A stretch of 64,000 bases of DNA, from NCBI RefSeq assembly GCF_032341995.1, contig NZ_CP135439.1, forward strand, positions 1,116,001-1,180,000, given 5' to 3'. The notes beneath the pieces were generated by a model that did not search any database, was not told the origin of the DNA, and was given only the letters and a program-made list of their open reading frames with translations. Below are positions 37,612 to 56,695 of this stretch, in pieces. This DNA comes from Domibacillus sp. DTU_2020_1001157_1_SI_ALB_TIR_016. Its GTDB lineage: Bacteria; Bacillota; Bacilli; Bacillales; Domibacillaceae. Position numbers and translations under genes: made by a program. Each line of letters starts with the position of its first letter. The first letter of the stretch is position 1.

Positions 37612-37617
37612 TCGAGA

Positions 37618-37651
37618 AGACGAACCCGCCTCAAGGCGGTTCGTCTTTTTC
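37618..37651 (+). terminator. Terminator after valS
   Basis: AGACGAAC(C)CGCC pairs with GGCGGTTCGTCT (37618-37646) with one bulged C, followed by TTTTTC. folC starts 23 bases later, so some read-through is likely. Confidence 0.75.
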
Positions 37652-37673
37652 GTACATAAGGAGAAGAAATGGC

Positions 37674-38981: not shown

Positions 38982-38993
38982 GTTTTATATAAT
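38965..38993 (+). promoter_or_regulatory. Promoter of the secreted repeat-domain gene
   Basis: TTTCCA (38965-38970) and TATAAT (38988-38993) have a 17-base spacer; start codon 35 bases downstream. The -35 lies inside folC. Confidence 0.65.
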
Positions 38994-39027
38994 AGTAAAA
39001 AAGGATTGAATTGGGGGATGACCCATT

Positions 39028-40488
39028 ATGCTTCGAAGAGTGGTAAGTGGTGCAGTATGTTCAATGATAGGAATGATCTTATTTATTTTGCTTTTTAACC
39101 CTCTTTTAGCTAATGCTGAGCAGGCTGAGAGCTCAGGCGTGGCTGGTAATGAGACGTTGATATCAACAGAAGCCTATGAGCGAATAGAAGCTTCTTCGGT
39201 CAGTATGCCTGCAGAACCGATTTACATGGCTTCCTATAACAGCTGGCCGGTGATGAAATTGTTTACTATATCCGGGGAACCGCTTGAAGATGAACGAGGG
39301 AATAAAAAAATACAAGTAGATGAAGATGTGCTTGTCTGGCTTGAGAATGTTGACCACACAAAAAATTGGACATATGAATTTAAGAAAAATAATGGACCGG
39401 ACAATCGATCGTTTACACCTTTCTCACCAGAAGATCCGATACTTTTATATAAAAGTGGCAGCAACAAAGTAACGATTCGGATTAAAGATGCTGAAGGAAA
39501 AATGATACATGAATATAGCGAAGAAGAAGTCATCATTCATAATCACAAGAAAGCTCAAGCTTCCATGTACATTCAAATAACGCCGGATGGAATGGAGCTT
39601 CTAGAAAAAGATTCTCAGCCATTTCAAGTAGAGGTTTTGGCTAATAAACGGAAAATAGCTTCTGAAAATTGGGTATATACCGTTGAAAGTGCTGAATATG
39701 GTGTGATTGATGTTCAAAATATAACGCAAACAGCTGGAATCATTGTTGCCCATAAACCGGGCCAGGCGTTCGTAAATGTATCGCTGGAAGATTTTCCTGA
39801 TGTAACCGACCAGCTTTCTGTTTCGGTTGCCGATTATGCTGAATTGCAGGGAGTTCAATTTAGCGAGGATTTTTATGACATCACGCATGAAACACTCATA
39901 GATTTAGAAAGCCTTATTTTGATCAATCCTAGCCATGCACCAGACGTTTCTTATACGTTTGAAACAGATAACGATGATATCGCGGAAGTTGTAAACAAGT
40001 CGGGTAAATCTTATCTTCGGGTAAAAGAAAATACCGGTGGACAAACAACCGTTACTGTAACTGCTGTTCAAAGCAGAACATTAAGTGATGGCCGTAAAGA
40101 GAGAATTGAAAAAACCGCTCAAGCTGACTTTATAGCCAGGGAATTCATTGAGCTTGAAAGAGTTTCTTTTACACAGAAAAAATATGATTTGGATGAGATG
40201 GTTCCGCCGTTTGAATCGTTAGTAAAAATCTATCCATCTAATGCAACAGATGTTCAGCTTGAATTTACCATGCAAAACAATCAAAACTTTGAATTGAATT
40301 ATAGCGAAACAGAGGGCTACACGCTTCAGCCAAAAGAGTCTCAAAAAGGCCAGGCCGTTATACGAGTAACCGCTACCCAGCCTGCTTCGGGCGGAAAAAC
40401 GACTAATAAGCATGATAATGCCGTTATTGTTAACGAAAATGAGTCTCTTCAAGAAGACGAAAACACAGTTATACAGGGAAGGTGGTAA
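39028..40488 (+). CDS. Secreted Ig-like repeat protein next to pilus locus
   Basis: I do not recognise a named family. The 486-residue product has a signal peptide (about residues 1-30, ending ANA). The mature part looks like beta-rich Ig-like (bacterial Big type) domains. Two similar units are visible: VQFSEDFYDIT...LILINPSHAPDVSY and VSFTQKKYDLD...LVKIYPSNATDVQL, each ending with VTVTA or IRVTATQ. No sortase motif or membrane anchor is seen. The gene is visibly AT-richer than its neighbours (a 60-base sample at 39301-39360 has 35% G+C). It has its own promoter and is convergent with the minor pilins. It may be a pilus-associated or surface protein, but this is inference. Confidence 0.7.
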   Translation: MLRRVVSGAVCSMIGMILFILLFNPLLANAEQAESSGVAGNETLISTEAYERIEASSVSMPAEPIYMASYNSWPVMKLFTISGEPLEDERGNKKIQVDEDVLVWLENVDHTKNWTYEFKKNNGPDNRSFTPFSPEDPILLYKSGSNKVTIRIKDAEGKMIHEYSEEEVIIHNHKKAQASMYIQITPDGMELLEKDSQPFQVEVLANKRKIASENWVYTVESAEYGVIDVQNITQTAGIIVAHKPGQAFVNVSLEDFPDVTDQLSVSVADYAELQGVQFSEDFYDITHETLIDLESLILINPSHAPDVSYTFETDNDDIAEVVNKSGKSYLRVKENTGGQTTVTVTAVQSRTLSDGRKERIEKTAQADFIAREFIELERVSFTQKKYDLDEMVPPFESLVKIYPSNATDVQLEFTMQNNQNFELNYSETEGYTLQPKESQKGQAVIRVTATQPASGGKTTNKHDNAVIVNENESLQEDENTVIQGRW

Positions 40489-40506
40489 GAAACAGAATGA
40501 CGATAA

Positions 40507-40545
40507 AAAAACAGCGCATATCCTTAAAATATGCGCTGTTTTTTA
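40507..40545. terminator. Bidirectional terminator at 40.5 kb
   Basis: ACAGCGCATAT (40511-40521) and ATATGCGCTGT (40529-40539) form an 11-base-pair stem flanked by A-run and T-run. It serves the secreted-protein gene and the convergent minor-pilin operon. Confidence 0.92.
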
Positions 40546-42771
40546 TTGAACGGTTAATTGATCACTGTAAACGGATAAATATTTTACTCTTGGTAAATAG
40601 TCCAGCTGTCCGAGCAGAATATTTCGGTCATACTGAATGATAAAGCGTGAGTAATGGCCATCCTGCCGGCTAAGAGAAGGTATAGCACTTTGAATGTTAA
40701 ACCCATCGGTTTCGCCCCGCACCGCATTTACAATAAAATCTCCTTTTGCAAATACGCCGCCGTCCACTAAAAAAAGAGACCCTACTCCGTATAGTTCAGC
40801 AGCGGGCTCGGATATGCCCGCCTGAACATCCTTGTCCGTGTAGAAAAAGCCTTTTAACGGCTGGACCGTACTGTTTTCGTTTAAATCTGGCACATACAGC
40901 CCTTTTCTTGGTTCGGTGCTTTCTTCAAGGTTTTGAAATTCATTAATCCTCGTAATGAGCAGGGAATCACCCGATAAGGAAACGAGCTGGCCATCGTTCC
41001 AGCCTCGAATGGACAAGTTGGAGATCGATGTTTTTTCCCGGGCATACATGGTGGCATCGATAGAAAAAAAGTCGTTCTCCGAGTGGCTGCTTTTTTCATC
41101 ATTGCCTTGTATGGTTAAGTTTTGGTCTGTAAACAGCGAACCCTCAAAATAAATATCACCTTTCTTGCTGTCTTGTACATATAAGTTGATATTATTCTTT
41201 GCTAAAATAAGTCCTTCAAGTGCTGCTTTATCCGACAAGTCTAATGTAATGGAACGTTCGGAAACAAGATGGTTTTTTAAAGTAAATGTGCCGGTAGACA
41301 TAATCTTCATTTCTTCACCACTAAACACCGTATTGCTGTCCGAGTTTGGAAAATCAACCGTCATTTCTCCTTCATTATGAAGAGTTATATGTTCTTGAGT
41401 CCAAAGGGGTCCCATAAGCTCGACAGTACCTGAATGGTTTGTAACGGTAATATTACCGTGGCTCGAAATAGAATAAAAAGAGACTGACTGGCTTTCATTG
41501 TTGATGGTAATACTTTCGTCATCGTAAAGTTGTGCTTCCTTTGAATCAATCATTCCGGCTTCGTTTTCAATTAAAATGCCTCCATCGGAAACCACCTGTT
41601 CTTCCAGCTGCAGTGTACTGCTGTTACGATTGACGATGGTTAAAGTGCCGCCAGAAACAAAGATGTTTTTAAGAACGAGATCATGGTCGGCAAAAATGGT
41701 TAAAGAACCTTTCACGCGTATGTTTTCAATTTGTTTTCCTCTCGGTTCAAGAACTGCGTCTCCTTTATAGTCAACATCAGAAAGACCATCCGCTATCGCT
41801 TCATATTCAGAAAGGGACAGGGTCACCCTTTTGCTTTTTCCATTTTTATCTGTTTCGTATGTGGTTAGTTTTTCACTTGTAGAGGATACGTTTTTCGCTG
41901 GATTATCCGGAACAGGCAGTGTTGTTAGGAATTTCGTTTTTTCTTCAGCAGCCCGGCGCCCTTCAGTATAAGCCTGGCTAAATTGAACGTCCTGGTACTG
42001 ACTGTCATTTTTTAAGCCGGGCACTTCTTCGTGATAAAAATTCTCGGGAACCAAAACGTTTGTTAAAGCCTGGGGATCAAAATCCCAATCAGTGTAGCTT
42101 CCAGGTGTTCCAACATATATATCTCCTGAAATAGATGGTTTGGGCGTTTGCTGTGACAGATTTGTTCCATTTTGAGTCAGGTAGTGGGCTTTTTCATCAA
42201 TTGATAAAGTATTAGCGAAAATATTCCCTTCAAGATGGGGAGAGCCGTTTAAAGACAATCTGCCTTTTTCAGAGCCAAGCGCGTATTTTAAGAAGCTGGG
42301 AAGAGGTGAAACGATCAGTTCTTTATGCGCGGTTCTTGACACTGCAGCACCTTCGTTTTCTTTTGCTGTAATAGACACGGATAGCACACGTGTAAGAGCG
42401 ATGTCTTTGTCTATAGAATATTCGCCGGTTATGTCTCTTACTTGAATGTCTTCAATCGCTGCATTTTCTGCTTTAACCTGCTCAACGACGGTATTGCCCG
42501 CTTGATCCAAAAGAATATCGATCGAAGCCGGGGTTACATTGGCAAGTGCCAGCTGGGCATTCGTTCGTAATTGGTCTGACAGCCCTGCTGTAAAAGAATC
42601 CATTGCTTTAATCGATTCATAGGTTATATCTACATCAGCTGTACGGACAGTGGTTCGTTTGGCGCCTCCAATTGTAGAAGAAACAACAGCCAGGCCAATT
42701 GTGGACATAATGACCATCACTAATAAAACAAGCAGGAGTGCGTTTCCTTTTTCATTTTGCATATACCTCAT
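40543..42771 (-). CDS. Giant PilX/GspK-like minor pilin with beta-helix
   Basis: The 742-residue product starts with a class III-type signal (MRYMQNEKG, then NALLLVLLVMVIMSTIGLAVV). Gly precedes the hydrophobic helix but Glu at +5 is replaced, as in PilX/GspK-like proteins that start or cap pili. After about 150 residues the protein becomes a long series of short beta strands (for example GTLTIVNR, DESITINNES, GNITVTNHSG, EHITLHNEGEMTV, RSITLDLS, NINLYVQ). This pattern suggests a right-handed beta-helix. The start overlaps the PilW-like stop by 1 base; MQNEKG at 42762 is an alternative start. It is the last gene of the minus-strand operon and probably sits at the pilus tip. Confidence 0.75.
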   Translation of the reverse strand: MRYMQNEKGNALLLVLLVMVIMSTIGLAVVSSTIGGAKRTTVRTADVDITYESIKAMDSFTAGLSDQLRTNAQLALANVTPASIDILLDQAGNTVVEQVKAENAAIEDIQVRDITGEYSIDKDIALTRVLSVSITAKENEGAAVSRTAHKELIVSPLPSFLKYALGSEKGRLSLNGSPHLEGNIFANTLSIDEKAHYLTQNGTNLSQQTPKPSISGDIYVGTPGSYTDWDFDPQALTNVLVPENFYHEEVPGLKNDSQYQDVQFSQAYTEGRRAAEEKTKFLTTLPVPDNPAKNVSSTSEKLTTYETDKNGKSKRVTLSLSEYEAIADGLSDVDYKGDAVLEPRGKQIENIRVKGSLTIFADHDLVLKNIFVSGGTLTIVNRNSSTLQLEEQVVSDGGILIENEAGMIDSKEAQLYDDESITINNESQSVSFYSISSHGNITVTNHSGTVELMGPLWTQEHITLHNEGEMTVDFPNSDSNTVFSGEEMKIMSTGTFTLKNHLVSERSITLDLSDKAALEGLILAKNNINLYVQDSKKGDIYFEGSLFTDQNLTIQGNDEKSSHSENDFFSIDATMYAREKTSISNLSIRGWNDGQLVSLSGDSLLITRINEFQNLEESTEPRKGLYVPDLNENSTVQPLKGFFYTDKDVQAGISEPAAELYGVGSLFLVDGGVFAKGDFIVNAVRGETDGFNIQSAIPSLSRQDGHYSRFIIQYDRNILLGQLDYLPRVKYLSVYSDQLTVQ

Positions 42772-43451
42772 TAAAATCCAAACCTACTTTCCAGCTGCAG
42801 TTTTTCTGTTGTTCGATCACTGCCAAGTGTAAATAAAAGCTTGATCGTTCCACTTTGGCAGGTGCCGGTTTCTGTTTCTGCCGAACAGGCAGCAAGCTCA
42901 AAGCTGGGGCTGCCGTCGCTGTTAACTTGAAAACTTGAAGGCACTTTTAAAATTTCTGTACGGGTTATAGCACTTTGGCCATTTTCTATTTCCGTCTGCT
43001 CAATCTGCACTTGCTCATCGATAATAGAAATTGTTGTTTCATTCGCAATGCTTTTGTTTGTGCGGACCGGATCGTAATAGTAATCGGTTGCGCTTGCCTG
43101 ATTCGCATTTTGAACGGCATTAAAAGAGGTATCTGTGTTATCAATCATTTTAATACAGGACGTATCAGTGCCGGACACAGCCGTTGTGTTTTTACAAGTC
43201 ATCACTTCATCAAAAGGGATGGAATACAATTCATTCATGATTCGAGTAGTCACATAGTCGGCGTCTTCACGAAATTGGGTTTCTGCCGTTTGCTTCATAT
43301 AAATTTTCTGGCCGGTTACAAGGGTGCTTGTTAAAACAGATCCGACGATAGCCAAAACGGTGATCACCGCTAAAAGCTCCATCAGTGTGAGGCCGCGTTC
43401 ATCGCATATCCTCGCTTTTAATCGTCCCATCGATTTCCACTTCCGGCTCAT
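42771..43451 (-). CDS. PilW-like minor pilin
   Basis: The 226-residue protein has a leader ending ERG and then LTLMELLAVITVLAIVGSVLTSTLV, with the required Gly -1 and Glu +5 of type IV prepilins, so PilD should process it. The globular part has two cysteine pairs (C-N12-C in MTCKNTTAVSGTDTSC and C-N7-C in CSAETETGTC) that may form disulfides. It overlaps the PilV-like gene by 53 bases and the PilX-like gene by 1, so the three are co-translated. Confidence 0.85.
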   Translation of the reverse strand: MSRKWKSMGRLKARICDERGLTLMELLAVITVLAIVGSVLTSTLVTGQKIYMKQTAETQFREDADYVTTRIMNELYSIPFDEVMTCKNTTAVSGTDTSCIKMIDNTDTSFNAVQNANQASATDYYYDPVRTNKSIANETTISIIDEQVQIEQTEIENGQSAITRTEILKVPSSFQVNSDGSPSFELAACSAETETGTCQSGTIKLLFTLGSDRTTEKLQLESRFGF

Positions 43452-43887
43452 TTTCTTTCCACCTCACTTTAACTGTTACAGGGATATAATATTTTTTTGT
43501 TTCCTCGTTAACAGTGTTGGATGTAACGGTCACTTCATACGCTCCATCGTTTACAGAAATGTTGCTGCAATCCGATTTATCTGCCGCACTTGATTGAAGA
43601 GTGTACACCTTTTCTCCCTGATCATCGGGACACATTTTAATCCATTTTTTGGTACCTGGGTTTTCAAATGTGTATCTCATTTCAACAAAGGACTGCTTTT
43701 CCATAAACATGAGAGCATTACGGGCTACGTTCAAAGCAACGGTTCTGCTTTCATTAACAGTGTTAAATGTCCCAGCTTGGAAAAAGAAGCGGGTGATGGA
43801 AAGTAAAAGGATACTTAAGATCGTCAGTGATACTAATAGTTCCAACAATGTGACCCCCGCCTGACAATTTCTGCTCTTTTTCGTCAC
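43399..43887 (-). CDS. PilV-like minor pilin
   Basis: The 162-residue prepilin has a short basic leader MTKKSRNCQAG followed by VTLLELLVSLTILSILLLSI, with Gly -1 and Glu +5. Cysteines in KMCPDDQG and SDCSN could form a disulfide. The start is GTG 43887, behind AAAGGATGG. It is the first gene of the minor-pilin operon, transcribed away from the plus-strand pilus genes; AT-rich divergent promoter DNA lies between 43888 and 44006. Confidence 0.85.
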   Translation of the reverse strand: MTKKSRNCQAGVTLLELLVSLTILSILLLSITRFFFQAGTFNTVNESRTVALNVARNALMFMEKQSFVEMRYTFENPGTKKWIKMCPDDQGEKVYTLQSSAADKSDCSNISVNDGAYEVTVTSNTVNEETKKYYIPVTVKVRWKENEPEVEIDGTIKSEDMR

Positions 43888-44006
43888 AACTTTCCATCCT
43901 TTCTTTGCAATTGCTTAACTTTATTATACAATATTCCTATTATACTAGTTTTTTCTTACTCAAATTTGTAATTATTCTACTACATTAGTAATAGTGAGGG
44001 TTGTGG
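43888..44006. promoter_or_regulatory. Divergent promoter region of pilus locus
   Basis: This is 119 AT-rich bases between divergent operons. On the minus strand two TATAAT hexamers occur about 15 bases apart (complement of ATTATA at about 43923-43928 and 43938-43943), giving -10 candidates for the minor pilins. No good -35 is visible for either. A plus-strand promoter for the 44 kb gene cannot be fixed. Confidence 0.5.
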
Positions 44007-45557
44007 ATGACAAAAACAGTTATGCTGTTTATCGGATTCTTGCTTATTTTGCCGATTTTACCCTGGCTGCCACTCGGTGTTTCATTAAAAGGAAAGCTGA
44101 TTATTGCGATTGAAAGCTTCGCCATTGCGGGGGCTATTTTGCTCACCACTGCTTATCTCCCGCTTTGGCAAAGTTTTTTGATCGGCTTTCTTTTTTTTGT
44201 CATGACAGGTTATTTTACAGTGAAGTATGGACTTCCAGCCTGGGCAGCAGAAGCAGAATCGTTTACAGATTCCGATCCGGCAGATGATTTCAGCAGTCAG
44301 CCGAAAAAACCTTTTGGTGAAGCACTGTTTACAAGAAAAAAAGGAACGCATGAGCCGGAAGATGTGCTGTTTCAAAAAGAACAGGTTGAGAAAAAACCTG
44401 AGCCAGAGGAGCAGAAGCAAGAAGGACAGGGAACAAGGGCAGAAGAAAAGGATGCATTGATGGCGGATAAAGAAGATATCTTTAATGTGACAAAAGAACC
44501 TGTACAGGAAGCAGATGCCCTGGAGACTTTGCTGAATGAGCAGGATGAACTTGAGGAACTCACATGGTTTAAAGAGGACCATCTAGAAGAATCCACTGAG
44601 AAGAAAGAGGAGAATGAATTAGAAGAGCTCGAGCTGCTTTTTTTTAATACAGAAGCAGATCATAAAACAGCAGAGAACGTGCATACAGACGATTGGCTTG
44701 AGGAGATGAACGAAAACAATCATCTTGAAGTCGAAAGTGATATCAAGTCTGTTGAAGGTGAAGAAGCAGGCGATTTATATTTGCTTGAACTGTTTGAAGA
44801 GGAAGAGTCAGAAAAAAAGAAAGAAACAGAGATTTTTGACCGTGAAGAAATTCCAATTTCAGACGATAAAGAGAGAGAAGCAAAACACTTAGAAGAAACG
44901 GAAAAACTGAATAAGCACTATTTAAACGATTTATTGAAAGAAGAATTCAATGAATCAAAAGCTGAGTCTGCTGAAGAGTCTGAGGATACCATTCCAGAGC
45001 TTGAGAAGAAACTTCTTTTAGAGCTGGAGGGGAAAGAGACAGAAAAAGAGGACATTCATTTAGCCGAAGAAGACATGGTTGAAGAAAATGAAGTCTTTTT
45101 ATCCAATAAAGAGGAACAGGAAGAAGCAGATTTTGTAGAAGAGGTTTGGGGAAATAATCATGCCGTTGTTCATTCTAATGAAGAAATACATAGTATAACG
45201 AATGATTCTGAAGCAGAAGAGTTCCAATCGCCGCCGCGTCTTTCTCCAGAATGGCTTCATCTAATCGTTCAGGAAATTGAGATTAAACAAAAAGCGCTGC
45301 CTTATATGGAAGCCGAAAGCGTGATGCAGCGTTACTTGCAATCCCGGCTTCATGATCGTGATTACTATGTCATTGCCCGTATGCTGGTCGCTTTTTATAT
45401 GGCGAACGGCCATTCATTCGAAGCTGTTCAACTGTTAGAAAAACTTAAACAGCGCTTAGGGGCTTATCCAGTTTTAATAGAAGAAATGAAAAGTATAAAA
45501 GAAATTATTTTAAATCAATCAGTAGAAACAGGTGAGAGAGATGAAGAAAAGCAGTGA
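44007..45557 (+). CDS. Glu-rich membrane protein of pilus locus
   Basis: I recognise no family. The 516-residue product has an N-terminal hydrophobic region with two or three helices (about residues 4-75). A very acidic, low-complexity cytoplasmic part (about 80-400) follows, dominated by Glu, Lys and Ser. The compact C-terminal helical domain (WLHLIVQEIEIKQKALPYMEAESVMQ..., about 415-510) looks TPR-like. ATG 44007, after GTGAGGG, is better spaced than TTG 44001. It is the first gene of the plus-strand pilus run and overlaps the PRC-barrel gene by 17 bases. A scaffold role is only a guess. Confidence 0.65.
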   Translation: MTKTVMLFIGFLLILPILPWLPLGVSLKGKLIIAIESFAIAGAILLTTAYLPLWQSFLIGFLFFVMTGYFTVKYGLPAWAAEAESFTDSDPADDFSSQPKKPFGEALFTRKKGTHEPEDVLFQKEQVEKKPEPEEQKQEGQGTRAEEKDALMADKEDIFNVTKEPVQEADALETLLNEQDELEELTWFKEDHLEESTEKKEENELEELELLFFNTEADHKTAENVHTDDWLEEMNENNHLEVESDIKSVEGEEAGDLYLLELFEEEESEKKKETEIFDREEIPISDDKEREAKHLEETEKLNKHYLNDLLKEEFNESKAESAEESEDTIPELEKKLLLELEGKETEKEDIHLAEEDMVEENEVFLSNKEEQEEADFVEEVWGNNHAVVHSNEEIHSITNDSEAEEFQSPPRLSPEWLHLIVQEIEIKQKALPYMEAESVMQRYLQSRLHDRDYYVIARMLVAFYMANGHSFEAVQLLEKLKQRLGAYPVLIEEMKSIKEIILNQSVETGERDEEKQ

Positions 45558-46476
45558 AGTACAAGGTCTTCCAATTATCAGCATCGCGGATGGAGTAGAA
45601 ATTGGCCAGGTTAAATCATTAATTATCAATCCAGAAAAAAGAAGCATTGATTTTATTACAATTGGACACGAGGAATGGGAGCAGGAAGGAAAAGCGATCC
45701 CATTCAATAAAATTATCGGCATCGGGGATTATGCGCTGACAATTGATCATGAAAGCAGCGTAATTGAAATGAACAGTATTCCGGTTGCGAACGAACTGTT
45801 AAACCGCAGAACAAAAATTGAGCAAACACCCCTTATGTCGAAAAAAGGACAGCTGATTGGACAAGCGGTGGAGTACATGATCGATGATGAAACCGGTGAA
45901 ATTAGTCAGCTGGTTGTAGAAGATAAACAGGAGTTGTTTTTGGTTAGCGGGCAATATGTCATCACCTATGGCCGGGATTTAATTGTAGTAGATGAAGATG
46001 TTGTAAAAGAATCGATAGAAGGAGAAAGTCAGGAGCCGTACTCTCTTTCTATTGATCCCGTAGAGGCAGATGCTTCGGCAGAACCCATCACACAGCCCGA
46101 CGCGCATGCTGAGCATACAAACGAGGAACCTCAGCCTGCCAGTGAAAAGCCAAGTTCTGTTTTAGAAGTTATTGAACCAGTGGAGCAGGAAGTAGAAACC
46201 GTGCAGGAAAAAGCAGCAGCGGAACCAGCTTTTGAAGAACTGGAAGAAGAACCAGCACCAAAGGAGCAGGAGGAGTCTTCTGTCGACCGCTGGCTTCAGC
46301 TGATTGAAGAGCAGCAAAGCAAGCTGTTAGCCGGCAAAACTGTTACAAAAAATATTGAAGTAAACGGAGAGATCTTAATTCCCGCCGGAACGGTTTTACA
46401 AGAAGAAGAGATTCAAAAAGCCCGCACAGCTGGATCGGAAATTCTCGTTGAATTAAGCATGAACAGCGAGGCTTAA
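45541..46476 (+). CDS. PRC-barrel domain protein of pilus locus
   Basis: The 311-residue product has two PRC-barrel-like units: GLPIISIADGVEIGQVKSLIINP...FITIG (residues about 8-45) and PLMSKKGQLIGQAVEYMIDDETGEISQLVVE (about 97-127). A Glu/Pro/Ala-rich linker and a conserved-looking C-terminal piece (VNGEILIPAGTVLQEEEIQKA) follow. PRC barrels are adaptor domains. There is no signal peptide, so it is cytoplasmic. It overlaps the preceding gene and lies 4 bases before the VanW-like gene. Confidence 0.78.
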   Translation: MKKSSEVQGLPIISIADGVEIGQVKSLIINPEKRSIDFITIGHEEWEQEGKAIPFNKIIGIGDYALTIDHESSVIEMNSIPVANELLNRRTKIEQTPLMSKKGQLIGQAVEYMIDDETGEISQLVVEDKQELFLVSGQYVITYGRDLIVVDEDVVKESIEGESQEPYSLSIDPVEADASAEPITQPDAHAEHTNEEPQPASEKPSSVLEVIEPVEQEVETVQEKAAAEPAFEELEEEPAPKEQEESSVDRWLQLIEEQQSKLLAGKTVTKNIEVNGEILIPAGTVLQEEEIQKARTAGSEILVELSMNSEA

Positions 46477-46480
46477 TGGT

Positions 46481-47797: not shown

Positions 47798-47809
47798 AGG
47801 TGATGCGGA

Positions 47810-49471
47810 ATGAAAACAAAGCGAAAACGACTCGGTGATCTGCTGGTTGAATCCGGCCTTATTACGGAGGAACAGCTGTCTGTAGCGCTAAAAGAAAAAA
47901 AAGACAACCAGAAGCTGGGTGACGCTCTTCTCAATAGAGGCTTTATTACAGAGCAGCAGCTGATTGAAGTGCTCGAGTTTCAGCTGGGCATTCCGCATGT
48001 CAGCTTGTACCGTTATCCGGTTGACAGCAAGCTGCTTAGCCTTGTTCCGAAAGAGATAGCCAAAAAAAATGTCATCATTCCCTTGAAGAAAGAGGAAAAT
48101 CGGCTGTTTGTCGCAATGGCGGATCCGATGGATTACTTTACGGTAGAGGATTTGCGTCTTTCTACAGGCTTTCAAATTGAGACCGTTATTGCCACGAAGC
48201 AGGACATTTTACGTGCTATTAATAAATATTACGACATGGACGACTCGCTTCAGGAATTTATGCAGCAAAATCAGGACACGGCGGAATCTTCGGAAGCGGG
48301 GGAAGCAGAAGAAGATTCTCCGGTGGTGCGGCTGGTGAACCAGATTATGTCCCGGGCACTCACTGAAAAAGCGAGTGATATTCATATTGACCCGCATGAA
48401 ACCAAAGTGGTCGTCCGCATGCGGGTTGATGGTGTGCTTCAGCTTGACCGCCAGCTGCCGAAGTCCATGCTTGGCATGCTCACAGCGCGCATTAAAATTA
48501 TGGCGAATATGGATATTACCGAGCACCGCGTGCCGCAGGACGGCCGGATCAAAACCAATATTGACTTTCGGGCTGTCGACCTCCGTATTTCTACGCTTCC
48601 AACCGTGTACGGCGAAAAAATCGTCATGCGGATTTTGGATTTAAGCAGTTCATTAAATGATATGAACCAGCTTGGGTTCAATAAAGTAAATTTAAAACGG
48701 ATGGAATCCCTGCTTCAGCGCCCAAACGGGATCGTGCTCATTACCGGGCCGACCGGGTCAGGTAAGTCATCTACGCTTTATGCCGGCTTAAACCAGCTCA
48801 ATAGTGAAGAAGTCAATATTATTACAATCGAAGATCCGGTTGAGTACCAGCTTGAAGGGGTCAACCAGATTCAAGTCAACCCGAATGTAGGGCTGACATT
48901 TGCGGCGGGACTTCGGTCGATTTTGCGCCAGGACCCAAATGTCATTATGGTCGGGGAAATCCGGGACAGAGAAACGGCCGAAATTGCCATCCGTGCTTCT
49001 TTAACCGGCCACCTTGTACTGAGCACCTTACATACAAATGATTCAATCAGCAGTATTACCCGTCTTATTGATATGGGTGTTGAGCCATTTCTTGTGGCGT
49101 CTTCCCTGAGCGGCATCGTCGCCCAGCGATTAATCCGCAAAGTGTGCCGGGACTGCGGCCGGGAAGAATCTGCAACGGAGCGGGAGCGGGAGATTTTTGC
49201 CAAAAGAGGATTGAAAATTGAAAGTGTCAAACGGGGAAAAGGCTGCGCCTCCTGCAATATGACCGGCTACAAAGGCCGATTGGCGATTCACGAAGTACTG
49301 GTTGTCACGGAAGAAATGAAACGCCTTATTTTAAACAATGAACCGCTGTCGAATTTAAAACAAATGGCATTGAAGAACAAAACGATTTTTTTGCTGGATG
49401 ATGGCCTTCTGAAAATTAAACAGGGCATCACCACGACAGAAGAAGTGCTTCGTGCTGTCCTAATGGAGTAG
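47810..49471 (+). CDS. pilB: Type IV pilus extension ATPase PilB
   Basis: PilB powers pilin polymerisation. The protein has 553 residues. Residues 7-30 and 35-58 form two MshEN motifs (pattern RLG..L...G......L...L..Q; RLG and final K in the first, KLG and final Q in the second), a possible cyclic-di-GMP site. Walker A is GPTGSGKSS (about 312-320), Asp box and Walker B are VGEIRDRETAEIA, and His box is STLHTND. The tetracysteine zinc motif is CRDCG...CASC (about 445-485). It lies directly upstream of pilT and pilC. Confidence 0.96.
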   Translation: MKTKRKRLGDLLVESGLITEEQLSVALKEKKDNQKLGDALLNRGFITEQQLIEVLEFQLGIPHVSLYRYPVDSKLLSLVPKEIAKKNVIIPLKKEENRLFVAMADPMDYFTVEDLRLSTGFQIETVIATKQDILRAINKYYDMDDSLQEFMQQNQDTAESSEAGEAEEDSPVVRLVNQIMSRALTEKASDIHIDPHETKVVVRMRVDGVLQLDRQLPKSMLGMLTARIKIMANMDITEHRVPQDGRIKTNIDFRAVDLRISTLPTVYGEKIVMRILDLSSSLNDMNQLGFNKVNLKRMESLLQRPNGIVLITGPTGSGKSSTLYAGLNQLNSEEVNIITIEDPVEYQLEGVNQIQVNPNVGLTFAAGLRSILRQDPNVIMVGEIRDRETAEIAIRASLTGHLVLSTLHTNDSISSITRLIDMGVEPFLVASSLSGIVAQRLIRKVCRDCGREESATEREREIFAKRGLKIESVKRGKGCASCNMTGYKGRLAIHEVLVVTEEMKRLILNNEPLSNLKQMALKNKTIFLLDDGLLKIKQGITTTEEVLRAVLME

Positions 49472-49476
49472 AACCT

Positions 49477-50514
49477 ATGAGAGAAAAGCTTGAATTTATT
49501 TTGCGTTCCGCTTTTGAGCTGAAAGCATCCGATATTCATTTAACAGTCGGTACGGCGCCGGTCTTCCGCATTCACGGAGATTTAAAGAGATACGGAAAAG
49601 ACCCGCTGAAGCCCGCTGACACAGAAGCCATGGCAAAAGCGATTATTCCTGAACACATGTGGGACTCCTTCAAGGAAAAAGGCGAGCTTGATTTTTCATT
49701 CGGACTGCCGCGCGTATCCCGGTTCAGGGTGAACGCTTATCACCAGCGCAATTGTATCGCCCTGGCATTTCGGGTGATTGCGTCCGGCGTGCCGACACTT
49801 GAAGAGCTGCATATGCCGGAAATCCTGAAAAAAGTGTCCGAGCGTCCGCACGGGCTTGTACTTGTGACCGGGCCGACCGGCTCGGGAAAATCAACGACGC
49901 TTGCCAGTATGATTGATTACTTAAACCGCAATACGAGAAAGCACATTATTACGCTTGAAGATCCGATTGAATACCTGCATAAGCATGGAAAATGCATTAT
50001 CGACCAGCGAGAAGTCGGCTATGATACGCAGTCATTTGCCAACGGGCTTCGTGCGGCCCTGCGCCAGGACCCGGATGTGATTTTAGTGGGAGAGATGCGC
50101 GATCTTGAAACGATTCAAACGGCGATTACAGCGGCTGAAACGGGACATCTCGTGTTCGCGACGCTTCATACATCCAGTGCGCCAGCGACCATTGAACGGA
50201 TTATTGATGTGTTTCCAGCTGAGCAGCAGCCGCAAATCCGGACCCAGCTTGCGACCGTGCTGACCGCTGTTATTGCCCAGCGCTTGTTCCCAACCGCAGA
50301 TTTAAAGGGACGGCGCGCTGCGCTTGAAATTATGCTGAACAACTCGGCGGTAGCCAATTTAATCCGCTCGGAAAAAGTGCACCAAATTATTAATGTCATT
50401 CAAACATCGAAAGCACAAGGGATGCAGCTGATGGCAGACCATGCTCAGGAGCTGTTTCGTCAGGAGGCTGTTTCTAAATCGGCCCTGCTTCCTTACTTAA
50501 GAGAAAGGGATTAA
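49477..50514 (+). CDS. pilT: Type IV pilus retraction ATPase PilT
   Basis: PilT depolymerises the pilus for twitching and retraction. The 345 residues are typical. It starts with the PilT N-domain (SAFELKASDIHLTVGTAPVFRIHG). Walker A is GPTGSGKST (about 132-140), Walker B region GEMRDLETIQTAITAAETGH, and the C-terminal retraction motif appears as AVANLIRSEK (canonical AIRNLIRE). Its presence, besides PilB, sets this locus apart from competence pseudopilus operons, which have one ATPase. It starts 5 bases after pilB. Confidence 0.96.
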   Translation: MREKLEFILRSAFELKASDIHLTVGTAPVFRIHGDLKRYGKDPLKPADTEAMAKAIIPEHMWDSFKEKGELDFSFGLPRVSRFRVNAYHQRNCIALAFRVIASGVPTLEELHMPEILKKVSERPHGLVLVTGPTGSGKSTTLASMIDYLNRNTRKHIITLEDPIEYLHKHGKCIIDQREVGYDTQSFANGLRAALRQDPDVILVGEMRDLETIQTAITAAETGHLVFATLHTSSAPATIERIIDVFPAEQQPQIRTQLATVLTAVIAQRLFPTADLKGRRAALEIMLNNSAVANLIRSEKVHQIINVIQTSKAQGMQLMADHAQELFRQEAVSKSALLPYLRERD

Positions 50515-50518
50515 CGGA

Positions 50519-51733
50519 ATGGCTAAATTCGCATACACCGGAAGAGACCGCCGCGGGCCGAAAAAAGGCACGCTGACCGCTAACTCTAAAAAAGAAGCAA
50601 TTGAAAAGCTGCAGTCAAACGGTATTCGGGTCAAAGAAATTGAACAGAAGCCGGAAGCCTTTTGGGAGCAGGATATTATCATCGGGCGGGCGGTTAAGCT
50701 TGAGCATATGGTTATTTTTTTGCGCCAGTTCGCGGCGCTTCTACAGGCGGGCGTTACTGTCGTCGATTCCGCCTTTATTCTTTCCCAGCAAACCGACAGC
50801 AAGCCGCTCAAGCGGGCGCTGATGAATATGGAAATGGAAATGCGGGAAGGCCGTCCGCTGTCAGAAGCCGCTGCCAAGCAAAAAAAAATCTTCGAGCCAT
50901 TGTTTATTAATATGCTGAAAGCCGGAGAAGCGACGGGAACGCTTGACCAGACCTTCAGCGATCTCGCTGTTCACTACGAGCGGCAGCACCGCACCCGCCA
51001 AAAAGTCATTTCGGCGCTTGCCTACCCGGTTGTCGTAGGGATCGTCGCCGTTTGTGTCGTGATCTTTTTGCTCGTTTCCGTTGTGCCGACATTTGTGAAT
51101 ATGTTTGAAGACTTTGGCGGAGAACTGCCGGCGATCACGAAGTTTGTGATCAACGCGAGTGAATGGATGCAGCGATTCTGGTATATGATTGCCCTGCTTG
51201 CGGGAGCAGCGGCAGGAGCCATTTGGCTTATGCGCCGCCGCCCGGAATCAAAAATGTACCTAGACTATGCGATTTTGCGCATGCCCATCTTCGGGAATTT
51301 AATGCGAAAAGCAGTGCTTGCCCGGATGACCCGTACACTCAGCTCGTTGTTTTCCAACTCCGTGCCTATTTTGCGGGCAATGGATATTACCGGCGAGGTC
51401 GTTGGAAATGAAGTGATTGCCGGTGTAATCCGCCAGTCAAGGCAGTCGCTGGAGTGCGGGGAGTCGATCACAGGACCGATGCAGCGCCACTGGGCATTTC
51501 CGCCGCTTTTGCATCAAATGGTGGCGATTGGGGAAGAAACGGGTTCGCTCGATCAAATGCTGTCAAAGGTTGCGGACTTTTACGAGGCCGAAGTGGAAAC
51601 AGTCACGGACCGGTTAAAAGCCCTTATCGAACCGCTTATGATTGTTCTGCTTGCGGCCATTGTCGGGACCATTGTCATTTCGGTCATGGTGCCGATGTTT
51701 GAAATCTTTAATACGGTGCAGGAAAGTGGTTAA
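50519..51733 (+). CDS. pilC: Type IV pilus inner-membrane platform PilC
   Basis: PilC is the integral membrane platform that couples the ATPases to pilin. The 404 residues contain two T2SF domains (about 65-190 and 270-395), each with long helices. Membrane segments are at about 165-190, 215-240 and 375-398. Typical parts are FLRQFAALLQAGV, ALMNMEMEMREGRPLSEA and MVAIGEETGSLDQML. It starts 4 bases after pilT. The segment is G+C-rich (a 60-base sample at 51181-51240 has 63% G+C). Confidence 0.95.
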   Translation: MAKFAYTGRDRRGPKKGTLTANSKKEAIEKLQSNGIRVKEIEQKPEAFWEQDIIIGRAVKLEHMVIFLRQFAALLQAGVTVVDSAFILSQQTDSKPLKRALMNMEMEMREGRPLSEAAAKQKKIFEPLFINMLKAGEATGTLDQTFSDLAVHYERQHRTRQKVISALAYPVVVGIVAVCVVIFLLVSVVPTFVNMFEDFGGELPAITKFVINASEWMQRFWYMIALLAGAAAGAIWLMRRRPESKMYLDYAILRMPIFGNLMRKAVLARMTRTLSSLFSNSVPILRAMDITGEVVGNEVIAGVIRQSRQSLECGESITGPMQRHWAFPPLLHQMVAIGEETGSLDQMLSKVADFYEAEVETVTDRLKALIEPLMIVLLAAIVGTIVISVMVPMFEIFNTVQESG

Positions 51734-51769
51734 ATGTGCTAATTGTTGAGATTTTTTTCCTATATTTCA

Positions 51770-51798
51770 TTGCTTTTGTCTTTGGTAATAAGTAGAAT
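51770..51798 (+). promoter_or_regulatory. Major pilin promoter
   Basis: TTGCTT (51770-51775) and TAGAAT (51793-51798) have a 17-base spacer. A separate promoter here fits the high dose needed for the major pilin. The leader is about 50 bases. Confidence 0.7.
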
Positions 51799-51856
51799 AC
51801 TAGTGTTGGTGTCCTAATACGATACTTATTGTCGAAAAAAGAGAGGAGAAAGAAAT

Positions 51857-52363
51857 ATGTTAAACGCACTAAAACGCCGCATAAAAAACGAAAAAGGGTT
51901 AACCCTGATTGAGCTTTTGGCGGTTGTCGTGATCCTGGGTATTATTGCTGCTATTGCGATTCCGGCTATTGGGGGGTTAATTGATAACTCGAAGAAAGAT
52001 GCGCATGTTGCAAACGCGACGCAGATGATTAACTCTGCAAAAACATACGTAGCTAGTCATCCAAACACTGCAACTACAGATATTTCCTTACAAAACCTTA
52101 TTGATCAAGGACTTATTGATGAACCAGAGGACCCGGATACTGGTGAAAAAGGGACAAATGGTTACGATACTGCTGCTTCTAAAGTTACAATTACAAAAAA
52201 CAGCTCTACTCCAGCAACGGTTGGCACTGATGGTAAAACCACCGCTGAAGCCAAAGCTGTTACTTACTCATACTCAGTTCTGTTAAAAGGTAAAGAACGT
52301 GGCATCACAGGAAATGCTGGAGAGCTTAATCGTGATAAAGTTTTAGCTGCACAGAAAAGATAA
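51857..52363 (+). CDS. pilA: Major type IV pilin (PilA/PilE-like)
   Basis: The 168-residue prepilin has a short leader (MLNALKRRIKNEKG, cut after Gly), then LTLIELLAVVVILGIIAAIA with Glu +5. The globular part is Thr/Ser/Lys-rich and has no cysteine, unlike the minor pilins. It has its own promoter and the strong binding site AGAGGAG. A following GTDGKTTAEAKAVTYSYSVLLKG stretch is beta-rich. It is likely the major subunit because of the separate promoter and spacing. Confidence 0.88.
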   Translation: MLNALKRRIKNEKGLTLIELLAVVVILGIIAAIAIPAIGGLIDNSKKDAHVANATQMINSAKTYVASHPNTATTDISLQNLIDQGLIDEPEDPDTGEKGTNGYDTAASKVTITKNSSTPATVGTDGKTTAEAKAVTYSYSVLLKGKERGITGNAGELNRDKVLAAQKR

Positions 52364-53107
52364 ATGATTAATCTTACTATCCTCCTTTACGGCCTCCTAT
52401 TCGGCTCGTTCTTTAACGTCGTCGGGCTCCGGGTACCGGACGGGAAGTCGATTGTAAAGCCGCGCAGCGCCTGTTCGCTGTGCGGCCATCAAATGACGGC
52501 GCGTGATTTGGTGCCGGTACTGTCTTATGTGTTCTTGAAAGGGCGCTGCCGCAAATGCGGTGCGAACATATCGGTCATTTATCCTCTAACAGAGCTGGCT
52601 GCAGCGCTGTTATTTTTGTATGCATATGTATTATATGGATTCAGTGCGCCATTTTGGATGGCGATTTTGTTGTTTTCGATGCTGTTGATTATTGTCGTGT
52701 CGGATGCGGCGTATATGCTCATTCCCGATAAAATCTTATTGTTTTTTCTGCCGCTGTTTGCGGTGATGCGTTTTATCGATCCGCTCGATCCGTGGTGGGA
52801 TACGCTGCTTGGCGCGGCGGTCGGCTTCGTTCTGCTTTTGCTCATTGCTGTCGTATCAAAAGGCGGAATGGGCGGCGGGGACATTAAGCTGTTTGGCGTG
52901 CTCGGGTTTGTGCTCGGTACCAAGCTTGTACTGCTGACGTTTTTGCTTGCCTGCTTTTTCGGGGCGGCGATTGGGCTCATTTTAATGGCGGCCGGCATCG
53001 TCAAGCGCGGAAAGCCAATGCCCTTTGGTCCGTATATTGCTCTTGCGGCTGTAGCTGCTTATACACATGGTGAAGCCATGATCCGCTGGTATCTTCAGTT
53101 TTTTTAA
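52364..53107 (+). CDS. pilD: Prepilin peptidase PilD/ComC
   Basis: PilD cuts the prepilin leader and N-methylates the new end. The protein has 247 residues. The N-terminal zinc-type domain has CSLCG (about residue 37) and CRKCG (about 64). The two catalytic aspartates lie in VVSDAAYMLIPD (about 120) and GGGD (about 172). Seven or eight membrane helices are visible. The gene is at the place of comC in B. subtilis (between folC and spoIIB) and starts right after the pilin stop. Confidence 0.96.
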   Translation: MINLTILLYGLLFGSFFNVVGLRVPDGKSIVKPRSACSLCGHQMTARDLVPVLSYVFLKGRCRKCGANISVIYPLTELAAALLFLYAYVLYGFSAPFWMAILLFSMLLIIVVSDAAYMLIPDKILLFFLPLFAVMRFIDPLDPWWDTLLGAAVGFVLLLLIAVVSKGGMGGGDIKLFGVLGFVLGTKLVLLTFLLACFFGAAIGLILMAAGIVKRGKPMPFGPYIALAAVAAYTHGEAMIRWYLQFF

Positions 53108-53122
53108 AAGGAGAAAAGAAGA

Positions 53123-54073
53123 ATGGCGCTGCGTTTATTTCAAAAAAAAGATAGAACGATCAATTTTACAATTACAGATGAAGCAATTCGTTTTGTGGAG
53201 CTGCGCCAGTCTGACCCCATTGTCATTGAAAAATTTGGCGAACGGCAGCTGCCGGAGGGATTGATTGTACAGGGTGATCTTGTGAAGATCGATGAGCTGC
53301 AGGATATTTTGGACAATATCGTAGATGAGTGGAAGCTGAAAAAACGGAATATCCGCTTTACTATTCCGGACCGGTTTGTGGCGATCAAAGAAGAAAAAGT
53401 GGACCGTGATTTAACATTGGATGAAATTAAAAACTTCTTTTTTATGCAAATCGGTTCGACTATCCATCTGCCGTTTGATGAGCCGGTTTTTGATGTGGTC
53501 GTAACGGGCTATGAAGAAACGAAGCAGACGGTTCTTCTTGTAGCGGCGCCGGAGCAGGTCATGGAGGAGTACGCAGGCTTGTTCGAACATGCCCGGCTGA
53601 AACCGGCCGCTGCCGATATCGCACCGCTCGCTGTTTACCGGCTGTTTCATGCCGGAGGGCAGACGGAGGAGGAAGCTCACGAGCTGATTATTCATTTGAA
53701 AAAAAACGTCATGACGCTGTCTATTTTTCACCGGCACCAGCTCAAATTTATAAAGCCGGTGTTTATTGAAAAAAGTGAAGATGTACTTGAAATAGAAGAA
53801 ACAGAGGAAAGCGGCGGTTTGGCAGATGCGCTGTCTGAAATTGAAAAAGTCATCAACTTCTATGAAAATTCTGTTCACGGCGGACAAGTGAAAATTGACC
53901 GGATGTTATTTACCGGCTATCATTCCCAGCGGACGTTTGCTGAGCAATTTATCCGACAGTCTTTTGATGTGCCTCTTCGAACCGATGAAGCAATCAGCAT
54001 GGATACAAAGCAGAACGAGGAGCTTCCGCCCGCTTTTTACGCAGCGGCTGGCCTTGCATTGAAAGATGGGTGA
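53123..54073 (+). CDS. pilM: Pilus assembly protein PilM
   Basis: PilM is the actin-like cytoplasmic protein that binds the PilN N-terminus. The protein has 316 residues with an ATPase fold: FTITDEAIRFVELRQ (residues 13-27), RFTIPDRFVAIKEE, VLLVAAPEQVMEEYAGLFEHA and MLFTGYHSQRTF. RBS AAAGGAGAA. pilN follows after 6 bases. Confidence 0.92.
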   Translation: MALRLFQKKDRTINFTITDEAIRFVELRQSDPIVIEKFGERQLPEGLIVQGDLVKIDELQDILDNIVDEWKLKKRNIRFTIPDRFVAIKEEKVDRDLTLDEIKNFFFMQIGSTIHLPFDEPVFDVVVTGYEETKQTVLLVAAPEQVMEEYAGLFEHARLKPAAADIAPLAVYRLFHAGGQTEEEAHELIIHLKKNVMTLSIFHRHQLKFIKPVFIEKSEDVLEIEETEESGGLADALSEIEKVINFYENSVHGGQVKIDRMLFTGYHSQRTFAEQFIRQSFDVPLRTDEAISMDTKQNEELPPAFYAAAGLALKDG

Positions 54074-54079
54074 GTATGC

Positions 54080-54688
54080 ATGTTAATCGATATTAATCTA
54101 CTTCCGGCCAAACGAAAAAAAAATATCCCTCTTTTTGTCTGGCTCCTAACGGGCGCGGCAGTGCTGGCGGCAGGCCTTGCTCTTTTTGCGGCTGTCCATA
54201 TCAAGCAGGGGCAGGTCGAGCGGGCTGAAAAGGAACTTGCGGCCCAGCAGCAGCTGCGGGAAGCACTTGAACAAGCGGCGCAGAATGCCAGCTCCGGTAC
54301 TCAAACAAGTGCAGACCAGCTCCAGCAGGCGGCAGAGTGGTCACAAACAAGGCGGCTGCCCGCTTCACCAATTTTGGAGCACCTTGTATCCCTTTTGCCG
54401 GAACGCGGTTTTTTCCAGGCGATATCTTATGTAAGCGACGAGGCGATGAATTTAACGGTTCAATTTGATACGAGCAGGGAAGGAGCTTACTATCTGGCTG
54501 AATTAAAAGATTCAGAATGGGTGGAAAGCGCGTCGATTCTTCAAGTAGATACCTCAGTGGATGAAACGGAAGAAGAAGCGAAACAAATTCTTGAATTAAC
54601 CGATGGGCTTCCGCGTTATTTAGTGCAGTATGAAATTGTATTTAACCGGCAGGCTGTCCTGCAAAAGGTGGAGGAAGCGAAAAAATGA
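54080..54688 (+). CDS. pilN: Pilus assembly protein PilN
   Basis: PilN is a bitopic protein linking PilM to PilO. The protein has 202 residues. The N-terminal INLLPAKRKKN (residues 4-14) is the PilM-binding INLLP motif. One membrane helix (about 17-37) is followed by a coiled coil (about 45-85) and a ferredoxin-like C-terminal domain. The stop overlaps pilO by 4 bases. Confidence 0.92.
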   Translation: MLIDINLLPAKRKKNIPLFVWLLTGAAVLAAGLALFAAVHIKQGQVERAEKELAAQQQLREALEQAAQNASSGTQTSADQLQQAAEWSQTRRLPASPILEHLVSLLPERGFFQAISYVSDEAMNLTVQFDTSREGAYYLAELKDSEWVESASILQVDTSVDETEEEAKQILELTDGLPRYLVQYEIVFNRQAVLQKVEEAKK

Positions 54689-55494
54689 GCAAAAAAAACA
54701 TTTATATAAGCGTGTTTCTCATTTTAATCCTCCTCCTATTCATTTATTGTTACTTTGCTTTTTACCGGACGGCCGCTGTAAAGCTCGAAACAGTAGAGCG
54801 AGAAAAGCAGGCAGAAGAAACACTGGTCGCAGCGCTTGAAGCAAACAGCGGCGGATCTGGTATAAAAGGCCCGTCTGTTGCGACAAGTTCTCTGCAAAAC
54901 AAAGTGCCGGTCAAGCCGATGAGTGACAAGCTGATGCTCGATTTCGAAAAAGCCGAATTGTTATCCGACAGCTTGATCACAGCAATTGTGTTTACCGAAG
55001 GAGAAGAAGAAACACAGCCTGTTTCAGAGGAAGAAAGCAATACAGACGAAACGCCGGAAAATCCGGATACAGCTGCAGATGAAGAAAATGCTTCAGAGGA
55101 AGAACAGGCAAATGAGCCGGAAGAGGAAAATATCACGGACGGTACAGAAGCCGAGACGGATGCTCAAGAGGAGCCCCTTCCGGAAGAAACACTGCCAGCG
55201 GGTATTGGAAAAATCCGCGCCCAGCTGACTATAGAATCACCCGGATTTGCAGAGATGAATGCTTTTATCGACTCGGTTGAAAATCAGATGAGAATGATCC
55301 GCGTGGAGCAGCTGGAATTTACCGGGCCGGAAGAAGCGGAGAAAATAAAAGGGTCGAATGAACCGGTCACGTACAATTTGACTGTTGCCGCGTATTATAT
55401 GCCGGAGCTGACGGATCTTTTCGAAGATACGCCAGAAGTGGATGCGCCGGACCCTGCCAATAAACAAGATCCGTTTGCAGCCATAGAAGAGTAA
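54685..55494 (+). CDS. pilO: PilO-like pilus assembly protein with acidic insert
   Basis: The 269-residue bitopic protein has one N-terminal helix (VFLILILLLFIYCYFAF, about residues 7-23). A region with LLSDSLITAIVF follows, then a long Glu/Asp/Thr-rich insert (about 107-175), and a C-terminal strand-helix domain (IRAQLTIESPGFAEMNAFIDSVENQ). Position after pilN and topology support PilO. The acidic insert is unusual for the family. Confidence 0.82.
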   Translation: MSKKNIYISVFLILILLLFIYCYFAFYRTAAVKLETVEREKQAEETLVAALEANSGGSGIKGPSVATSSLQNKVPVKPMSDKLMLDFEKAELLSDSLITAIVFTEGEEETQPVSEEESNTDETPENPDTAADEENASEEEQANEPEEENITDGTEAETDAQEEPLPEETLPAGIGKIRAQLTIESPGFAEMNAFIDSVENQMRMIRVEQLEFTGPEEAEKIKGSNEPVTYNLTVAAYYMPELTDLFEDTPEVDAPDPANKQDPFAAIEE

Positions 55495-55495
55495 T

Positions 55496-55915
55496 ATGAA
55501 GATAAATGAAAAAGGCTACACCCTAATAGAGCTGCTCGCTATAGTAGTCATTCTTGGTATCATTTCAGCTATTGCCGTTGTCGGCATCGGCCGCTTGATT
55601 GAGCAGTCAAAAGAAAAAGCATTTGTTGCACAGGCTCTTCATTTCAAAGAAGCGGCAGCATTGTTTGTGACAAATGAGCGGGTCGAAAATCCGGATGCGA
55701 TACCTGAACGCGTGACTTACAAACAGCTGTATGAAAAAGGATTGGTAGAGAAAGTGATCGACCCATTTACAGACAAACTGCTCGATCCGGACGAGAACGA
55801 AACCTACGTCGGTATTCGCTCAAACGGGTCTGTTTATAAAGTTTGTTTGTATGGTGAAGGAAAACAGCTTTGCCCCGATACACTGGCAGGTTTAGAAGAA
55901 AAGAATATTAAATAA
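55496..55915 (+). CDS. Minor type IV pilin
   Basis: The 139-residue prepilin has leader MKINEKG and then YTLIELLAIVVILGIISAIAVVGI, with Gly -1 and Glu +5. Two C-terminal cysteines (VCLYGEGKQLC) form a likely disulfide loop. It resembles the major pilin at the N-terminus but is shorter. It lies 1 base after pilO and ends the pilus run. Confidence 0.88.
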   Translation: MKINEKGYTLIELLAIVVILGIISAIAVVGIGRLIEQSKEKAFVAQALHFKEAAALFVTNERVENPDAIPERVTYKQLYEKGLVEKVIDPFTDKLLDPDENETYVGIRSNGSVYKVCLYGEGKQLCPDTLAGLEEKNIK

Positions 55916-55917
55916 GA

Positions 55918-55951
55918 GAAAGAACAAAGCGTCCTGCGTTTTGTTCTTTTT
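55918..55951 (+). terminator. Terminator of pilus operon
   Basis: AAAGAACAAA and TTTGTTCTTT (within 55919-55949) flank a loop with inner GCG/TGC pairing and continue into T's. Confidence 0.82.
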
Positions 55952-55994
55952 TAATAGATTCGTCGTATATATAGAGTGATGAGGAGGGATAGAC

Positions 55995-56585: not shown

Positions 56586-56609
56586 CCTGCCTCCATCCGG
56601 CGGGTTTTT
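56586..56609 (+). terminator. Terminator after spoIIB-like gene
   Basis: CCTGCC (56586-56591) pairs with GGCGGG (56599-56604, one G-U), followed by TTTTT. Confidence 0.7.
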
Positions 56610-56695
56610 ATTGTTTGCCGGTACGTTGTTTGATATGATAAACGCGTAACTCCCAATGACTCTTTATATCCAACCAAAAGGAAAGGTGATCCTCT

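Follow-up and report, generated by a model that had tools for sequence, protein, structure and literature searches.

Type IV pilus (pil) operons have been reported before among the Gram-positive Bacillales. In 2011, Imam et al. (PMC3244431) described them in Bacillus sp. NRRL B-14911 (B. infantis), Geobacillus, and Exiguobacterium. The accessible text of that report places pilT in a number of Gram-positive pil operons, has a Bacillales pil operon beside a com operon, and points out that the pilD/comC homologue is not necessarily within the com operon. The locus analyzed here is like those systems, but the same accessible text holds no treatment of locus position, of replacement by a lone comC, or of exchange at the strain level, and folC and radC are absent from its main text. 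A second precedent is the type IV pilus locus of clinical isolates of Paenibacillus thiaminolyticus (2022, PMC9765702), which, in the portions of that paper available, carries pilB, pilT, pilC, pilD, pilM, pilN, and pilO, is expressed, and is present in some strains and missing, apart from a pilB remnant, in another. That paper places the locus in a predicted mobile-element insertion, whereas the variation between folC and spoIIB in Domibacillus looks like homologous replacement, with comC as the alternative. Finally, the Com pilus of B. subtilis, which depends on comG and comC (PMC6668835, PMC4474612), has its prepilin peptidase family in common with the Domibacillus locus, and the available part of a 2019 survey (PMC6668835) treated prepilin peptidases as exchangeable between systems and omitted them from its further analyses.

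In the open-licence literature, we found no description of the Domibacillus locus, of its position, or of lone comC as a remnant of it. The Com system is not known to have PilT or PilMNO, and we take comC of B. subtilis to occupy the same neighborhood, upstream of maf-radC-mreB. The Domibacillus genome differs from this arrangement in that comG lies elsewhere and comC is absent.

The window, meaning the whole stretch of 64,000 nucleotides that was analyzed, belongs to a genome of 2 contigs and 5.1 Mb (completeness 100, contamination 3.85; hereafter G000). According to the open reading frame list, the gap between folC and the spoIIB position holds 16 open frames, which make up a type IVa pilus locus at 39028-55915. 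Locus proteins were assigned by Pfam and NCBIfam profile searches, and radC and mreB were identified from the open reading frame list together with homology searches. The features are as follows.

37674..38981, plus strand: folC, the upstream flank (open reading frame list, homology search)
39028..40488, plus strand: accessory 1, secreted-type protein with a Big_2 Ig-like domain (family search; low conservation)
40543..42771, minus strand: large minor pilin of 742 aa, candidate tip pilin (prepilin-like start without Glu5; AlphaFold model)
42771..43451, minus strand: minor pilin (N_methyl above cut-off, E5 present)
43399..43887, minus strand: minor pilin, PilV-like (TIGR02523 E 2.7e-8, under cut-off)
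44001..45557, plus strand: accessory 2, acidic protein, hydrophobic segments near the N terminus (no family match)
45532..46476, plus strand: accessory 3, PRC-barrel protein (PF05239 E 4e-12)
46481..47797, plus strand: accessory 4, VanW-like protein with G5 domains and one N-terminal helix (VanW and G5 just under Pfam cut-offs)
47810..49471, plus strand: pilB, extension ATPase with MshEN domain (PF00437, T2SSE, 458 bits)
49477..50514, plus strand: pilT, retraction ATPase (TIGR01420 485 bits, cut-off 319)
50519..51733, plus strand: pilC, platform protein (T2SSF, PF00482 E 1e-60)
51857..52363, plus strand: pilA, major pilin (N_methyl above cut-off; GLTLIE start motif)
52364..53107, plus strand: pilD, A24 prepilin peptidase (both A24 domains, PF06750 and PF01478, above cut-offs)
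53123..54073, plus strand: pilM (PF11104 E 1.5e-15, above cut-off)
54080..54688, plus strand: pilN (sub-threshold PF05137, E 0.026, with gene order and size)
54685..55494, plus strand: pilO (sub-threshold T2SSM_b, E 0.042, with gene order and size)
55496..55915, plus strand: minor pilin (E5 present)
55919..55951, plus strand: hairpin with a T-rich tail, terminator-like by eye (absent from the list of the consensus scan)
Downstream flank: a short gene at the spoIIB position, SPOR-like (E 0.0086, below cut-off), then maf, radC, and mreB

An earlier, sequence-only reading of this DNA had proposed a full pil gene set between folC and the spoIIB position, ending at 55951, and all the genes that it named were found as open frames; its endpoint is that of the hairpin right after the last gene (55915). 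Its four accessory genes are also there, encoding the Ig-like secreted-type, acidic, PRC-barrel, and VanW/G5 proteins. For the PilMNO set, PilM is above cut-off, while PilN and PilO combine sub-threshold matches with order and size. Of the four minor prepilins, three of which are on the opposite strand, three have N_methyl above cut-off, as PilA does; the remaining one, at 40543-42771, begins like a prepilin but lacks Glu5. Consensus scans for promoters and terminators performed at about chance level, with 22 of each found versus 26.1 and 19.2 in shuffled sequence. We also observed that third-position GC of pilB, pilT, pilC, and pilD (47810-53107) is 53-60%, against 42-50% in six flanking genes.

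The components point to a retractable pilus. PilB and PilT occur together with PilC and PilD, as in type IVa pili, and PilA has a class III signal and Glu5, as for a type IVa major pilin. PilT matches solved structures of retraction ATPases. The expected Walker A/B and His-box motifs are present in PilB and PilT, and the two Asp-bearing motifs in PilD. The locus proteins are of the PilB/PilC type and PilD carries A24_N, which sets the locus apart from a Tad/Flp pilus; the presence of PilT separates it from type II secretion, and the position of the comGA-GG set outside the locus from a Com pilus. There was no secretin family match among the 16 locus proteins. The PilO-like gene and some of the pilins do weakly match type II secretion models, as would be expected of a type II-like or competence pseudopilus, but we regard that identity as highly improbable, given that PilT is above its curated cut-off, that the comG operon is separate, and that the major pilin matches type IV pilin structures in the PDB (geopilin, PilE1, and PilA), with a poorer match to GspG. 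The earlier description of a type IVa pilus locus that carries pilT and is separate from comG is supported.

It is also important to consider whether the locus could be silent or residual, on its way to a lone pilD. Such decay is seen in relatives: one genome (G048) has kept vanW, pilD, and pilMNO and is missing pilB/T/C; another (G034) has kept a pilT fragment, pilC, pilD, and pilMNO, with no pilB in the fetched stretch; and in Neobacillus niacini (L159:9212-12833) pilD is open, pilM is truncated, and later genes are partly retained, with pilB/T/C not found. A split pilB in Bacillus sp. FJAT-42315 (G004), described below, is of the same kind. In the window, however, all 16 frames are open, the ATPase motifs are present, and PilT, PilB, and PilC are under strong purifying selection between G000 and D. 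robiginosus (G015), with dN of 0.009-0.037 and dS of 0.82-1.19. We therefore consider decay in this strain very unlikely; the locus is intact and probably makes a working type IVa pilus.

Several observations on relatives can be set beside these. In G104, an open pilin gene abuts the lone comC. In G004, pilB was matched as two separate pieces (G004:C1:1355348-1356777), and the PilD of this genome groups with that of G006, yet its rpoB sister G003 has a lone comC. Weak PilT-family matches, absent from G000, occur in four lone-comC genomes (G012:C88:82467-83276, G016:C62:7284-8093, G023:C33:63876-64688, and G020:C41:9398-10015); these are perhaps TadA-like, with a possible trade between kinds of pilus.

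Among the less conserved parts of the machine, the 742-aa pilin has a start that presumably resembles that of a PilX/GspK-type pilin lacking Glu5. Its AlphaFold model (mean pLDDT 82, the first 40 residues low) begins with a helix and ends in a long, beta-rich module; Foldseek returned no PDB match for this pilin at E<=0.001. The best matches, to ice-binding proteins and tapirins, were only weak, and we dropped a named adhesin fold for this reason. The VanW-like protein has Foldseek matches to G5 domains (E 2e-6). Since 56 of 62 named pil loci have it, this protein may be a regular component of such pilus machines on the wall side. The acidic accessory protein has matches in 34 of the 62. In one locus (G009), the range of this protein (L054:12167-13747) contains a stop; the named record (L107) has an open 521-aa frame there, and the stop is probably a coordinate effect.

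Four places in G000 belong to the T2SSE family, namely PilB, PilT, ComGA, and one weak other. The search for a separate comG operon that the sequence-only reading had recommended found a complete one (comGA-GG) elsewhere in the genome (L039), and ComEC is present too. Searches for A24 prepilin peptidases, which could miss a very divergent one, found a single member in the genome, PilD of the locus, sitting where comC would be. Since no other was found, the simplest inference is that PilD would also mature the ComG pilins and so do ComC's job, as had been suggested.

The wider sample is in line with such sharing. Exactly one A24_N occurs in 23 of 24 family genomes, the other one (G017, 77% complete) having neither PilT nor A24_N, and in 89 of 91 order genomes, with none in G075 and two in G109. 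ComGA is above cut-off in 88 of the 91 (not in G037, G065, or G099) and in 62 of the 63 that bear PilT. With ComGA and a single A24_N both this widespread, one peptidase for both filaments looks like the rule where PilT occurs. A mirror case is G060, whose pilus genes are on another contig without pilD and whose sole A24_N gene is at the folC-maf site.

Next, we consider how the locus is distributed. Within the family, PilT is above cut-off in 12 of 24 genomes, and the 11 PilT-less genomes with a peptidase all have a lone comC between folC and maf (11/11). Across the order, PilT was found in 63 of 91 sampled genomes, with a peptidase (A24_N) no more than 10 kb from pilT in 62 of these 63; lone comC is the minority state. 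The 28 PilT-less order genomes comprise 2 with a lone comC at the site, 1 without A24_N, and 25 examined separately. Those 25 include 17 with a lone comC that has folC and/or maf-radC as neighbors, 5 in which the stretch fetched around comC shows none of these genes, and 3 whose pil loci lack a full-length pilT. Both maf and radC follow 58 of the 62 named pil loci; of the other 4, three end at contig ends and one, from Oceanobacillus, is full length without maf/radC. Across the class, PilT lies within 22 kb of radC in 49 of 70 PilT genomes (23 families), and of the remaining 21, 5 have the two genes far apart and 16 have them on different contigs. The folC-maf site is not fixed for the pilus or comC, as these 21 of 70 class genomes and the 5 of 25 with a comC away from its neighbors demonstrate.

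The locus occurs upstream of maf-radC in seven named Domibacillus species (robiginosus, indicus, tundrae, enclensis, mangrovi, aminovorans, and iocasae) and across the Bacillaceae; it is also found in Rossellomorea, Neobacillus, Metabacillus, Lederbergia, Priestia, Salipaludibacillus, Evansella, and others. In a quick pil tree of 61 rows, made without bootstrap, the window's family, with 12 rows, is a single clade. For D. iocasae, a clade of its pil genes with D. tundrae and D. enclensis alone was rejected (AU p 5e-77), though rpoB groups all three, and a wider clade with five other pilus-bearing Domibacillus was not (p 0.17); the groups in these tests were named after the trees had been viewed. 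An rpoB tree of 23 family genomes requires at least 7 changes between the pilus and lone-comC states, and lone ComCs are mostly on long branches or stems in the peptidase tree. From this distribution, the folC-maf site looks like the old home of the pilus locus, with lone comC as the reduced state. The sequence-only reading had described the locus as inserted at the comC position. Comparison of the folC-spoIIB interval across relatives did reveal a lone-comC alternative, but the pilus locus is the commoner occupant of the site in the order, and the proposed history is probably backwards.

The exchange itself is best seen in the two genomes nearest to G000 on the rpoB tree, G012 (labelled the same species) and G016 (labelled the same genus), which both have a lone comC. 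Their flanks are 96.5-98.3% identical in DNA to the window; aligned blocks end at 38823 and resume at 55981, so that similarity holds to where folC ends and again from where spoIIB begins. Three segments can be delimited.

35500..38823, no strand: left flank, more divergent from G012 and G016, a putative recombination-tract trace
38824..55980, no strand: replaced segment of 17,157 bp, versus a lone-comC segment of 1,386 bp in G016 and 2,853 bp in G012
55981..56980, no strand: right flank, more divergent from G012 and G016, a putative recombination-tract trace

The G012 segment is the longer because it has a TnpB-type open reading frame (OrfB_IS605, E 4e-30) inside comC. As this frame (L061:3913-5136, minus strand) splits the only A24_N gene found in that genome, G012 may lack a working ComC. 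We also observed that the window has 184 bp at 34495-34678 where both G012 and G016 have 4 bp. This segment, whose ends are roughly inverted by eye, contains an Rfam Bacillaceae-1 RNA (34528-34595, minus strand), and the "RNA" here acts like a small mobile repeat.

Divergence is concentrated beside the junctions, and only in comparisons that involve G000. Between G000 and G012, 148 of 4324 positions (3.42%) differ there versus 374 of 23335 (1.60%) elsewhere (p 1.2e-13), and between G000 and G016, 177 of 4324 versus 545 of 23334 (p 3.5e-10); these p-values are optimistic, as the flank boundaries were picked after the divergence profile had been viewed. The G012-G016 comparison is flat (88 of 4324, 2.04%, versus 512 of 23333, 2.19%; p 0.53). 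In addition, the last ~54 codons of folC (from about 38813) are unlike those of the sister strains without the pilus and co-vary with the cassette. The divergence beside both junctions and the folC tail that changes with the cassette together point to replacement through homologous recombination.

The direction of this replacement bears on the main alternative, in which the pilus locus was recently inserted horizontally at the comC position of this strain and displaced an ancestral comC. Such a history would account for the lone comC in both nearest genomes, for G000 being the divergent genome beside both junctions, and for a folC tail in G000 without a good match in any sampled relative. Compared with the four nearest pilus-bearing species, this tail shows only 57-59% identity, which is unexpected under plain vertical descent. 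The cassette, however, looks native in composition and divergence. Its median pS to D. robiginosus is 0.60 (13 genes) versus 0.48 for the flanks (17 genes), medians that exclude genes of <45% identity or <60% coverage. This fits vertical descent, and we rejected the idea that a D. robiginosus-like donor recently supplied the cassette, because cassette pS is not below flank pS. No integrase or transposase family is among the matches of the 16 locus proteins, and the longest exact direct repeat common to both ends is 11 bp and off the boundaries (95% of shuffles gave <=10), with nothing attachment-like. Together with the presence of the same locus upstream of maf-radC in the named Domibacillus species and across the Bacillaceae, these results make recent insertion a doubtful explanation. 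This strain may have gained the locus from a close relative through allelic replacement, which would be an exchange within the old site and no insertion of new material.

The junction pattern fits equally well an import into G000 or an import of comC into its sisters. We tried to polarize the swap with D. robiginosus as outgroup, which failed because G000-derived changes and changes shared by G012 and G016 both rise near the junctions. The lone-comC segment of G016 has 33% GC in a neighborhood of 46% GC, and the comC genes of G012 and G016 (33-34% GC) are AT-rich and share no more than 56% identity with the other peptidases in the family. They cannot be simple deletion products of the window's locus, in view of 51-53% protein identity and this GC content. 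A donor for them was not found at >56% identity among the 41 matches above threshold in 299 order genomes; four of the five best matches were PilDs of Domibacillus.

Taken together, we think it likely that Domibacillus has here a complete monoderm type IVa pilus locus that has long occupied the folC-maf site and swaps with lone comC. In the pilus as we envisage it, PilB, probably tuned by cyclic di-GMP via its MshEN domain, would power polymerization of PilA on PilC, and PilT would retract the fiber. PilM, PilN, and PilO with the VanW-G5 protein would align the fiber across membrane and wall, the three minor pilins encoded on the opposite strand, with the 742-aa protein among them, would make the tip, and PilD would process PilA as well as the ComG pilins. 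The folC-maf locus in Bacilli would repeatedly shed pilB/T/C and pilins, the remaining pilD being what is called comC, and recombination in folC and beside spoIIB would swap the pilus locus with a lone comC. Such a swap would leave competence served, because nearly every allele carries a peptidase.

Beyond this locus, we favor, with some reserve, the view that ComC of Bacillus competence is the stranded PilD of an ancestral folC-maf pilus locus whose pilus genes were lost repeatedly, and that pilus locus and lone comC are alleles within a species, swapping by homologous recombination and compatible via one shared peptidase. As pil operons in Bacillales were already published in 2011 and 2022, the interest lies in the exchange between comC and pilus and in comC as a stranded pilD. 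The strains provide a natural same-species pair with and without the 17-kb pilus locus, usable for functional tests. If true, this view would account for the competence peptidase gene lying far from comG in Bacillus, it predicts a single peptidase serving two filaments in most genomes of the order, and it suggests ordinary homologous exchange, and not mobile elements, as the way in which at least some of the strain-variable type IV pili of Bacillales turn over.
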